The notes under the pieces: model-generated | What the model was told of the DNA's origin: nothing | Seen by the model: the letters and a program-made list of their open reading frames with translations, nothing else | Database searches by the model: none | Part shown: positions 25,651 through 28,979 of the stretch, piece after piece | Layout: every line of letters begins with the position of its first letter | How positions within the stretch are numbered: the stretch's first letter is position 1 | DNA from: Crocinitomicaceae bacterium | GTDB lineage: Bacteria; Bacteroidota; Bacteroidia; Flavobacteriales_G; Salibacteraceae | Assembly: GCA_002713215.1 (NCBI GenBank) | Contig: PAVO01000025.1 | Coordinates: forward strand, 1 to 64,000 | Length of the DNA stretch: 64,000 bases | Direction of reading: 5' to 3' | Translations under genes and position numbers: made by a program

Positions 25651-25733
25651 GCCGAAGTGGCGGAACTGGTAGACGCGCTGGATTCAAAATCCAGTTCCTT
25701 CTGGGAGTGCGGGTTCGATTCCCGCCTTCGGTA
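25651..25733 (+). tRNA. tRNA-Leu (CAA)
   Basis: Acceptor GCCGAAG pairs with CTTCGGT, anticodon stem CTGGA/TCCAG encloses loop TTCAAAA with anticodon CAA, there is a long class II variable arm, and the T arm GCGGG-TTCGATT-CCCGC is perfect. Discriminator A; CCA not encoded. It reads UUG codons. Confidence 0.96.
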
Positions 25734-25917: not shown

Positions 25918-26616
25918 ATGAAGTTTACCGAAAAGAAAATACTTGATATTCAAGGGAAAATACTGCTTAAAGCAGAAAAAATACTGATTGACAAGATAAA
26001 AGCGAAATCTGGCTTGAAAGCATACAGAAATAGTAAAGATTTGCAACATTTAAAATGGGTTTGGGTCGAAAAACCAACAACCCAGGATATTGAAATTGAA
26101 TTACAAATTGCCCCTCCTTTAACCGTAAACGAATTGGGAGAACAGTACCTCCACCCAACAAGTTTAAAAATGCTAACGCACGAGTTGATGAATACATTAA
26201 ACGATTCAGAAGGCACTTCAAAAGGCATTTTTCAATTTATGCGCCCAGAAGTAAACCTGGATTACAATTGGTTCTACATCACATATTCATTTTCATCCAA
26301 GCTCAACTCAATCCTTGCAATTTCAACGCGGGTAAACGAGTTCGAAATAGATACACATGAAAAAGTAATAGGAGATTATGTTTTTTTGAGTAGAAACTAT
26401 TTCAAATTTGTACAGTTGACACCGGTTCAGCTAAAAATTTTGGGTATGCTTGCGGCGGGAAAAACCAACAAGGAAATTGCTGCCCATATTTCCATTTCCC
26501 CGAATACAGTAAGAACCCATAGAAACAACATTCATAAGACCCTTGGCATGTGCTGGAAACCAGTTCACCCATTAATTACCTACTTACGTTATGCCCAAGT
26601 ATTCGGGCTTATCTAG
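25918..26616 (+). CDS. LuxR-type (GerE) HTH transcriptional regulator
   Basis: 232 residues. The C-terminal about 50 residues are a LuxR/GerE helix-turn-helix: 'LTPVQLKILGMLAAGKTNKEIAAHISISPNTVRTHRNNIHKTLG'-like order, with the invariant Glu, Thr-Val-x-x-H/R positions visible (about 167-212). The N-terminal 160 residues have no receiver Asp pocket; they look like a PAS-like sensor fold ('NWFYITYSFSSKLNSILAISTRVNEFE'). So it is probably a one-component ligand sensor rather than a response regulator. It is the first gene of an accessory cluster and is separated from the next gene by 278 bp of structured DNA. Confidence 0.85.
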   Translation: MKFTEKKILDIQGKILLKAEKILIDKIKAKSGLKAYRNSKDLQHLKWVWVEKPTTQDIEIELQIAPPLTVNELGEQYLHPTSLKMLTHELMNTLNDSEGTSKGIFQFMRPEVNLDYNWFYITYSFSSKLNSILAISTRVNEFEIDTHEKVIGDYVFLSRNYFKFVQLTPVQLKILGMLAAGKTNKEIAAHISISPNTVRTHRNNIHKTLGMCWKPVHPLITYLRYAQVFGLI

Positions 26617-26742
26617 AATCAACTAGGAATATCATTTTCGAGTTCCACAAATCCATTAATTAGGGTAAGGTTAATACTTCCGCTTTAGTGGTTGTATTGG
26701 AGTTGTGGCTCTAAAAACATGCTCTTTTGATATAAATATTTC

Positions 26743-26760
26743 ATACGCTTTGTAGCGTAT
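26743..26760. repeat. Perfect hairpin in the gap before the small secreted protein gene
   Basis: ATACGCT (26743-26749), loop TTGT, AGCGTAT (26754-26760). It could end the LuxR-type transcript or serve as a binding site. Confidence 0.5.
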
Positions 26761-26794
26761 TGATTAAAGTTGATGATAGAGGTAATATTGGTTC

Positions 26795-26835
26795 GTGTGT
26801 ATTTTCTTTTTAAAGTAAAACTTAGTAGTACACAC
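26795..26835. promoter_or_regulatory. Long imperfect inverted repeat upstream of the small secreted protein gene
   Basis: GTGTGTA (26795-26801) pairs with TACACAC (26829-26835), and the inner TTTTCTTT pairs with AAAGTAAAA with one bulge. A second small stem AGGC...GCCT follows. A candidate -7 box TATCTTTA (one mismatch) lies about 13 nt before the ATG 26895, so the repeat may be an operator at or near the -33 region. Confidence 0.4.
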
Positions 26836-26894
26836 AAAATAGGCGTAAACCGAAAAGCCTTTAAATAGAGTAGGTATCTTTAAATTAAGTATTT

Positions 26895-27278
26895 ATGAAA
26901 ACACTAAAGTATTTATTGTTATTAGGCGCAGTGATTATTTTCACTGACGTATTTGCCATTAAGGTGGTAAGAAAGGGCAAGGGTCCAAATGGATATGACT
27001 ACGTAAGCCAAGGTTCAACCATTTTCGGCGAAGACAAACTAGTCTGTAAAAATCCAGGACGAGTTACGTGTGGCTGGGTATCTGGCCCTGCAATGGTTCA
27101 AGGAAATTCAGGTTTAATTGACGTACACGACATTATGAACTATGTACAAAATCAAGTTGACATAGGAAATACTTCGGGTCAAACTATATATGACGGAATT
27201 ACCGTTATCTGGATTGACATTAGTGACGAAAATGGAGATGGTCATGAATTGACAATTGATGCAGAATTTGTTGAATAA
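26895..27278 (+). CDS. Small exported protein with one cysteine pair, unknown family
   Basis: 127 residues; signal peptide about 1-21 (LLLLGAVIIFTDVFA). The mature 106-residue protein has only two cysteines, C51 and C59, in 'LVCKNPGRVTCGW', and an acidic C-terminus ('DISDENGDGHELTIDAEFVE'). There is no T9SS domain and no lipobox. I do not recognise the family. Its end overlaps the next gene's start by 20 bp, so the two are coupled in translation. The thioredoxin-like protein two genes on makes an oxidised or heme-like use of the cysteine pair plausible (inference). Confidence 0.7.
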   Translation: MKTLKYLLLLGAVIIFTDVFAIKVVRKGKGPNGYDYVSQGSTIFGEDKLVCKNPGRVTCGWVSGPAMVQGNSGLIDVHDIMNYVQNQVDIGNTSGQTIYDGITVIWIDISDENGDGHELTIDAEFVE

Positions 27279-28476
27279 CTTCAATAGAACAATTAAAATC
27301 CTCGCAATATTAATATTATTGGGAGGATTTTTTTTAGCTAAAAGCTCAGCACAATCATTAGAACATAAAAAATACTGGCAATTTGAAATTGAAGGTAACC
27401 AGTTTATCGAAGGCTCCAAATTATTCTCTTCTTATGAGGACACTTTATTTTACCTGTCCTCGATAGTTAAAAACAGAGTTACCATACAAAAGGTACCGCT
27501 AGGTCATAATAAAAATACTGAAACGCATTCAATCAATATCAGTTCGGAAGTAAAAGCGATTCTACGTTCTTACGAATTGTACACTTCGTCATATAAAAGT
27601 ACCCTTGCAATATATTGCAAGTCTAGGACACGTTCAAATGACAAATTGCTGATCATAGATATTTCAAAAAACTTAGTAGACACTTTTGAAATTGAGCGAA
27701 TAAATGGCTTTGAGCAATGTGATTTGATTAATGACTCTTTGGTACTTTTCTCTCACATCTATAATTACATGCCTGGGGACGCCGCATCAAAAACCTCACT
27801 TGCGCTATTTCATTTAAAAAAACGATATTTTATCAATCGGCGGTATCCCCTATTTAATGATATCGGTTTTTCTCATTTGGAAAGTTTCTGGATAGATTAC
27901 AACAGAAACACATTAATATTTTCACAAAGCACAAGCTACCATATCGATACTTACAATCCAATTACACTTACAATAAAGGACTCCATTACCCGAAAGTACC
28001 CTGGCTGGTCAAACAAAAAAATCAACTATAAGTATGACGTCAATACACAATACAAAAAAAACTACATACAAGAAATCGTCTCCATTAGCAATCGCATTTA
28101 CAGAATTGATAAAGTTTATGCACTTGACAGTAACTTGTTAATGGTCGTTGTACGTCCGCCTAAAAGAGAGGATAATGCCCGATACATTGATCTATGGAAA
28201 AAAGAAGAATCTAGTTGGGAATTAATATTGGACCGGTACGAAGTTACTCCAGCTCCATTTTTTTTTCTTTCAAGAAAGGAAATTCAACCGTTTTCTTCTT
28301 CGTTTTATTTTGAAGGCAGTGGCTCGTATTTTATCTATCAAAGTTTTCTATTACCACCTCCTATACTTGTTGCAATTAAACCATTCTACACCTTTCGAAC
28401 CACTAATAAGAACATTAATCAACCTTTAAAAACCAGGATCAACGTTACCTCTCTGAAAACAAAACATGCTTGGTAA
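27259..28476 (+). CDS. Exported protein of unknown function, beta-propeller-like
   Basis: 405 residues from ATG 27259 (20 bp inside the previous gene). After an N-terminal signal/anchor ('IKILAILILLGGFFLAKSSAQ') the protein is strand-rich with regularly spaced 'LFYLSSIVKN', 'LAIYCKSRTRSNDKLLIIDI', 'LVLFSHIYNY', 'TLIFSQSTSYHIDTY' and 'LLMVVVRPPKRED' segments, as in six-bladed propeller proteins of Bacteroidota, but I see no signature that proves it. The stop codon overlaps the next gene's ATG (TAATG). Confidence 0.65.
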   Translation: MQNLLNNFNRTIKILAILILLGGFFLAKSSAQSLEHKKYWQFEIEGNQFIEGSKLFSSYEDTLFYLSSIVKNRVTIQKVPLGHNKNTETHSINISSEVKAILRSYELYTSSYKSTLAIYCKSRTRSNDKLLIIDISKNLVDTFEIERINGFEQCDLINDSLVLFSHIYNYMPGDAASKTSLALFHLKKRYFINRRYPLFNDIGFSHLESFWIDYNRNTLIFSQSTSYHIDTYNPITLTIKDSITRKYPGWSNKKINYKYDVNTQYKKNYIQEIVSISNRIYRIDKVYALDSNLLMVVVRPPKREDNARYIDLWKKEESSWELILDRYEVTPAPFFFLSRKEIQPFSSSFYFEGSGSYFIYQSFLLPPPILVAIKPFYTFRTTNKNINQPLKTRINVTSLKTKHAW

Positions 28477-28979
28477 TGAAACTACTTGTATTGATTATTA
28501 GTCTTTGTTTTTATTGTTCATGCTATTCTCAACATTTTAAGGTAAAAACCAGTCTTGGTTTTCCTAAAACTCTAAACATGGAAAAATTAGAATCTAAACT
28601 ACTTGTATTGCTCAACTACAGGCATTGCGATCATTGTGTCAAATCAATAAATAAGTTTATTTCCGAGGATAAGCGCATTTCTTCAAATAGCATTTTAATT
28701 GTGGAGTTACGTGAGCAAGGCATCAAGAAATTCTTCGAGAAAAAGAGAATAAAAATGCAAAACGAGTATGGTAAATTCTATTTCATCAATTCAAGAGAAA
28801 ACAATAAGGAGAACATTTTTTCTTTTTATAAATGCTCTTCTTCCCCTGAAATAATTTTAATATCCAAGAATGGAGAGCATACTCACTTTTCTAATTTTGA
28901 ACTGTTCAATAATTCCAATCAACTATCCGCCAGCGCAAAAAACGTAATTCAACGAACAATTGTGGTTGATACTAACTAA
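28476..28979 (+). CDS. Exported thioredoxin-like protein with CDHC motif
   Basis: 167 residues from ATG 28476, which overlaps the previous stop by one base. Signal sequence 'LLVLIISLCFYCSCYSQ' with several cysteines (possible lipoprotein). Then 'KLLVLLNYRHCDHCVKSINKF' with redox-type pair C51/C54, and 'FYKCSSSPEIILISKNGE', where the cis-Pro region of a thioredoxin fold is expected. The family match is to the TlpA/AhpC-like periplasmic redox proteins in general. It is the last gene of the unit with the two preceding exported proteins. Confidence 0.7.
   Translation: MKLLVLIISLCFYCSCYSQHFKVKTSLGFPKTLNMEKLESKLLVLLNYRHCDHCVKSINKFISEDKRISSNSILIVELREQGIKKFFEKKRIKMQNEYGKFYFINSRENNKENIFSFYKCSSSPEIILISKNGEHTHFSNFELFNNSNQLSASAKNVIQRTIVVDTN

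Follow-up and report, generated by a model that had tools for sequence, protein, structure and literature searches.

We analyzed a 64,000-nucleotide (nt) stretch of DNA from a Crocinitomicaceae bacterium (contig PAVO01000025.1; hereafter the window, whose positions give all open reading frame (ORF) coordinates below). At 26895–28979 lie three tightly coupled genes for a small exported protein with two cysteines, an exported propeller-like protein, and an exported thioredoxin-like redoxin. On balance we lean toward reading them as one operon that encodes an exported disulfide-hairpin protein together with its own disulfide machine, in which the redoxin, seated on the propeller, would form or maintain the bond between C51 and C59 of the small protein. 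The features of this cassette are as follows.

26895–27278, + strand: gene for the small exported two-cysteine protein, 127 amino acids (aa), called from the ORF and its homologs
27045–27071, + strand: C51-x3-G55-x3-C59 cysteine hairpin (C51 codon, 27045–27047; C59 codon, 27069–27071)
27259–28476, + strand: gene for the exported propeller-like protein, 405 aa, the conserved second gene of the cassette
27754–27780, + strand: HIYNYMPGD block (family consensus YNYHPLD), the most conserved block in the alignment of the propeller-like family
28476–28979, + strand: gene for the exported thioredoxin-like redoxin, 167 aa, with CxxC and cis-Pro conserved in homologs
28626–28637, + strand: codons of the CDHC active site of the redoxin, from the sequence and the family alignment

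The coordinates confirm the coupling and the export signals given in a preliminary description of this DNA: the ATG of the propeller-like ORF at 27259 sits within the end of the small gene (20-nt overlap), the redoxin ATG at 28476 uses the A of the TAA stop of the propeller gene (a TAATG junction), and all three proteins, like nearly all of their homologs, begin with a hydrophobic export signal. That description also assigned the first two proteins to no known family, and neither has a match in Pfam or NCBIfam; for the small protein this includes every known toxin family there.

The gene trio recurs across Bacteroidota

Profile searches of the class, the phylum, and two subgroups, followed by reading of the neighborhoods, returned the complete order of small, propeller-like, and redoxin genes in 24 loci from several Bacteroidota classes, the last two genes being fused in one of them. 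The partners of the 127-residue protein thus do recur in the genome-neighborhood search that the preliminary description had proposed, and by their sequences the three genes are a real conserved unit. Neighboring genes mostly overlap or lie at most 82 nt apart, with two exceptions between small and propeller genes (197 and 460 nt). The host genome has one copy of the small-protein gene; a homologous trio with a CEPC redoxin occurs in a second genus of the family (Flavobacteriales metagenome-assembled genome (MAG) HKST-UBA67, G004), and a contig scan with a two-row propeller alignment had this already known Flavobacteriales MAG as its sole match.

A search with the propeller profile, made without the small protein, matched 12 of 385 genomes of the class, and seven of the eight genomes with a small gene in the matching class sample were among these 12 (hypergeometric P = 2.7e-11). 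In the eighth, G367, the small gene lies where a contig ends. Because several of these genomes had themselves supplied sequences to the profile, newly read propeller loci are the cleaner test of co-occurrence; at nine further propeller loci found without the small protein, the small gene is adjacent in seven and the redoxin gene in six. Pairwise distances among loci are correlated between the three proteins (Mantel r 0.39, 0.23, and 0.38), for which common descent alone could suffice. That the genes are chance neighbors or miscalled ORFs, a reading to which the missing family annotation of the small and propeller-like proteins lends itself, is exceedingly improbable given this co-occurrence, and the same order in 24 loci of several classes already refutes it.

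The distribution of the cassette is patchy (about 2–3% of genomes), and each locus has one or two diverged tandem copies of the small gene. Mobile-element genes adjoin several cassettes (integrases at L205 and L031, a resolvase at L208, and IS66 at L078), which suggests horizontal movement; no integrase was seen near the window copy. Separately, in G290 and G147 (L017:6634-6636; L201:3144-4339) a stop or frame change, from either decay or sequence error, splits the propeller gene, and the genes for the redoxin and the small protein are intact.

A cysteine hairpin is the most conserved element of the small protein

C51 and C59 are the only cysteines of the small protein, which has a signal peptide at approximately residues 1–21 (VFA|IK, assigned by eye) and a mature length of ~106 aa. 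In alignments of the first 12 and then 17 small proteins, C51, G55, and C59 are invariant. Among 45 collected family members, 41 have the exact C-x3-G-x3-C spacing, and no other residue is as well conserved as this cysteine pair, so that the lack of C51 and C59 conservation that the preliminary description would have counted against its reading is not seen. The four exceptions are G573b, with one extra residue; G573c, whose spacing is shorter; G760b, a partnerless orphan that has lost one hairpin cysteine; and G570b, the product of an additional small gene that follows a complete cassette (L079:8186-8575), in which both cysteines are replaced by alanine and the glycine is kept. Joint loss of both cysteines is what would be expected of a disulfide pair, of which G570b is a single case.

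Homologs that occur without the partners, which the preliminary description would have taken as evidence against a unit, do exist (two in G760, one in G759, and one in G818), but they are few. The small homologs at L072, L073, and L075 form a sister group (CDTLIC.GSGYE.CK) from a single Bacteroidia family and have neither propeller nor redoxin beside them. One further match, at L036, was discarded as antisense of an antiporter-like gene. A profile search of the PDB with the small protein gave one weak, implausible match only.

The redoxin is fused to the propeller-like protein in some species

The best curated match of the redoxin is Thioredoxin_8 (E 0.02, 15.7 bits), below the cut-off of 27 bits, and thioredoxins are among the matches of a PDB profile search. 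The CxxC motif is present in 27 of 27 homologs; in the 21 of the alignment it is likewise complete, with the cis-Pro position kept in at least 90%. The thioredoxin-like CDHC protein of the preliminary description is therefore upheld by its conserved CxxC and cis-Pro, but not by its profile matches, which are weak and sub-threshold. Both positions inside the CxxC vary freely, so that oxidase and reductase cannot be told apart from this motif.

The window propeller-like protein gave no match in a PDB profile search or in plasmid and phage collections. Of its family 31 sequences were collected, and 0 of 16 members match PF15869 or PF17170. The models of the small and propeller-like proteins are poor because each was built from a two-row alignment, the 405-aa model having a mean predicted local distance difference test score (pLDDT) of 44. 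With this low-confidence model Foldseek returned mostly β-propellers (Kelch, prolyl oligopeptidase, neuraminidase) at a template modeling (TM) score of ~0.2, and profile comparison with the TolB_like propellers associated with NVEALA proteins gave probabilities of 42–58%, against ~0 for reversed profiles. Comparison of the propeller profile with itself detected no internal blade repeats, but the TolB_like controls likewise gave none. The 405-aa protein is likely propeller-like: the term used in the preliminary description has a weak footing in the propeller-biased, low-TM Foldseek results and the remote TolB_like match, and none in a Pfam propeller match.

Two fusions of propeller and redoxin are single ORFs: 547 aa with CSPC at residue 455 in L023 (G050), and 607 aa with CHDC at residue 484 in L078 (G833). 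The other two are ORFs of 571 and 643 aa at L032 (G730), each with a redoxin-like CxxC at residue 87 and a long part after it, and we read them, from layout rather than from a profile match, as redoxin–propeller fusions in the opposite order. Fusion in both orders, in four genes, argues for a working complex of propeller and redoxin.

The fusions are also compatible with a different arrangement, which we consider unlikely, in which the small protein and the propeller form a stable heterodimer at the surface or in the periplasm and the redoxin merely helps the small subunit to fold. Methylamine dehydrogenase (MauA/MauB/MauD) has such parts, with a propeller heavy chain, a small disulfide-rich light chain, and the MauD redoxin. 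The cassette resembles it in its small exported cysteine-bearing subunit, propeller subunit, and thioredoxin-like helper, and its genes overlap. The window cassette differs in having no quinone-cofactor genes, one disulfide instead of several, and no profile match; no cofactor-making gene was noticed beside the cassettes read, the propeller matches no enzyme family, and diverged small genes stand in tandem beside a single propeller.

NVEALA loci share the gene order and the hairpin

In Bacteroidales, NVEALA proteins (PF14055) precede TolB_like propellers (PF15869) and, in some triplets, CTSC redoxins, a layout that matches the window cassette in all three kinds of exported gene and in their order. 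Among 77 NVEALA proteins from the Bacteroidales genomes examined, 28 contain C-x3-G-x3-C, with a spacing identical to that of the window family, compared with 1.4 expected from shuffled tails; the propellers tested beside this hairpin subgroup are PF15869 TolB_like (E < 1e-75). Since the hairpin was first seen in three of ten proteins, its link to the redoxin was tested on newly fetched loci only, with the discovery loci excluded. A redoxin is the next gene after 12 of 20 hairpin NVEALA genes and 4 of 35 others (Fisher p 4e-4; 3e-4 without duplicates), a p value that is optimistic because related genomes are non-independent.

Comparison of profiles from the two kinds of locus gave a 95% probability for the redoxins and 85%, over 14 columns only, for the small proteins, with reversed controls at 2% or less. 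The two cassette types are thus likely to be remotely akin, at least in the redoxin and the hairpin. By NVEALA's own profile, the window family is not NVEALA: neither the window small protein nor any of 17 relatives matches PF14055 or the NCBIfam NVEALA profile. The LSDLALxNVEALA segment that follows the signal in NVEALA proteins is absent from the window-family alignments. The mature window small protein has ~106 aa, compared with ~40 aa beyond the NVEALA segment in NVEALA proteins, and its C-terminal part is longer. The tested NVEALA-linked redoxin carries a C-terminal DUF1573 domain, which the window redoxin lacks, and the window propeller-like protein, unlike the NVEALA-locus propellers, matches neither PF15869 nor PF17170. 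The earlier statement that the sequence differs from NVEALA therefore holds for the overall sequence but not for the cysteine hairpin, which is common to one NVEALA subgroup. A search of the open literature found no paper naming NVEALA proteins. NVEALA clusters (L096-L098, L130-L149) contain many tandem pairs of NVEALA and propeller genes, with up to 24 NVEALA matches in G997.

The same data bear on whether the redoxin might serve other periplasmic targets, the three genes being kept together only through common regulation. Orphan small homologs with both cysteines and the great diversity of the redoxin sequences would fit such a role, which we nonetheless regard as improbable: in NVEALA loci, too, redoxins go with the cysteine hairpin, and the fusions link redoxin and propeller.

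The operon has a leader RNA and a non-conserved neighboring regulator

Two features precede the cassette.

25918–26616, + strand: gene for a LuxR-type (GerE) regulator, 232 aa, PF00196 match, which adjoins the cassette as a non-conserved part
26840–26876, + strand: DUF805b RNA (RF02914, an Rfam cis-regulatory family), in the operon leader, its end 18 nt before the ATG of the small gene

The leader RNA, which the preliminary description had missed, scores 46.1 bits against an Rfam gathering threshold of 35.6 (E 3.5e-11), and it lies at the same place upstream of the small gene in G367 (L019; 46.5 bits). Sub-threshold matches are found at L023 (32.5 bits) and L037 (21.2 bits), in genomes G050 and G004. 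The RNA is present in 85 of 149 related genomes, before many kinds of very diverse genes, and this spread rules it out as a cassette-specific element. Across Bacteroidia the start codon is most often ~26–30 nt downstream of the GAGTAG of the motif. A search of the open literature found no paper on the DUF805 RNA motif. All four DUF805b RNAs of the host genome (26840–26876 of the window; L151-L153, L183, L184) precede exported cysteine-bearing proteins, and two of the four sites adjoin a LytTR regulator and a sensor gene.

The regulator gene ends 278 nt before the small ORF. Its LuxR call is correct (PF00196 GerE, E 3e-13; helix-turn-helix (HTH), 49.6 bits versus a cut-off of 23.5), but its proposed role as the sensor of this unit is not borne out. 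No gene of this type recurs upstream of the other cassettes read, its GC content at third codon positions (GC3) of 0.386 equals the window mean, whereas the three structural genes are AT-rich (GC3 0.31–0.34), and the operon starts with a leader RNA of its own; for the lack of recurrence and the host-like composition we rejected it as part of the cassette. The regulators beside other cassettes are unrelated, namely XRE-type HTH at six loci, short HTH at two, sigma-factor-like at two, and LytTR and a receiver–LuxR response regulator at one each, with the HTH of L037 counted by its similarity to L068, and about half of the cassette loci have none. Such variation makes an adjacent regulator a frequent but exchangeable feature. 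Farther upstream, before the LuxR gene and the cassette, lies a transfer RNA gene (25651–25733; anticodon CAA, Leu, by eye).

Proposed mechanism

The trio and its order, the conserved cysteines and CxxC, the fusions, and the leader RNA can be read directly in the genomes. From these we infer the following course for an operon that pairs a hairpin protein with its own disulfide machine. Expression would start from the leader with the DUF805b RNA, the LuxR gene being at most a local, exchangeable regulator. The small protein would be exported by its signal peptide, carrying a single cysteine pair in the C-x3-G-x3-C hairpin. The CxxC redoxin would work in a complex with the propeller-like protein, the two being one polypeptide in some species; the propeller would hold the small protein, and the docked redoxin would form or maintain its C51–C59 disulfide. 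The small protein may then be an outward-acting product. A "redox-matured secreted factor", as the preliminary description had put it, is supported by the conserved trio, the cysteines, the four fusions, and the redoxin preference for the hairpin NVEALA subgroup.

A dedicated redoxin makes sense in Bacteroidota because Bacteroides are stated to lack general disulfide machinery (PMC6671954). Bacteroidetocin operons (PMC6671954) are similar in that they too belong to Bacteroidota and pair the gene of a small, cysteine-bonded, exported product with a dedicated thiol oxidoreductase gene, deletion of which attenuates toxin activity. The oxidoreductases of the pediocin (PedC) and sublancin systems (PMC4919988) likewise are CxxC enzymes that take part in maturing a single small secreted product with disulfide bonding, and PedC raises pediocin potency; these systems are Gram-positive, have no propeller partner, and have peptides unrelated in sequence to the window small protein.

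Several points weigh against the proposed mechanism. G523 and G181 have the small gene and the propeller with no redoxin seen at the locus, and the homologs at L072, L073, and L075 keep their cysteines without local partners. The redoxins are very diverse, with 11–22% identity to the window copy, which makes the direction of the reaction unreadable from sequence, and both structure predictions (small and propeller-like) are of low confidence, so that neither is a usable structure. A protein with two cysteines needs no isomerase and could oxidize spontaneously.

The patchy spread, diverged tandem copies, and mobile-element neighbors at several loci fit a product of competition or signaling. Possibly, though we hold this with some doubt, the small protein is a secreted antibacterial or competitor-directed effector, akin to bacteroidetocins in role though not in sequence, matured by the redoxin, with the propeller as carrier, anchor, or immunity protein; the dedicated oxidoreductase would then be as in the bacteroidetocin and pediocin operons (PMC6671954, PMC4919988). 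Bacteroidetocins, however, are peptides of 42–48 aa with a GG (double-glycine) leader, a peptidase–ATP-binding cassette (ABC) transporter, and a protein with five transmembrane segments (PMC6671954), none of which is present in the window cassette. Neither the window flanks nor the cassettes read showed a GG leader or dedicated peptidase–ABC exporter, there is no recognizable immunity gene, and the mature small protein, at ~106 aa, exceeds that size range and matches no toxin family in Pfam or NCBIfam.

Significance

Two protein families new to Pfam and NCBIfam occur together in a consistent small cassette across Bacteroidota, and the general type, in which a secreted protein with a disulfide is encoded beside an oxidoreductase of its own, is already known. 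A bolder and distinctly tentative proposal is that a class of exported disulfide-hairpin proteins may span the phylum, with NVEALA as its gut-Bacteroidales branch and the window family as a further one; each branch would be matured by a propeller-docked redoxin of its own, and the proteins would serve as secreted effectors of intercellular antagonism or signaling. If true, this would place disulfide-hairpin effectors in bacteria thought to be without general disulfide machinery. NVEALA proteins are common in Bacteroidales, and the common hairpin and its tie to a redoxin make their function testable, by asking whether the hairpin is the redoxin substrate. The cassette also suggests a route by which a disulfide-bonded protein could be exported from bacteria that have little general disulfide machinery.

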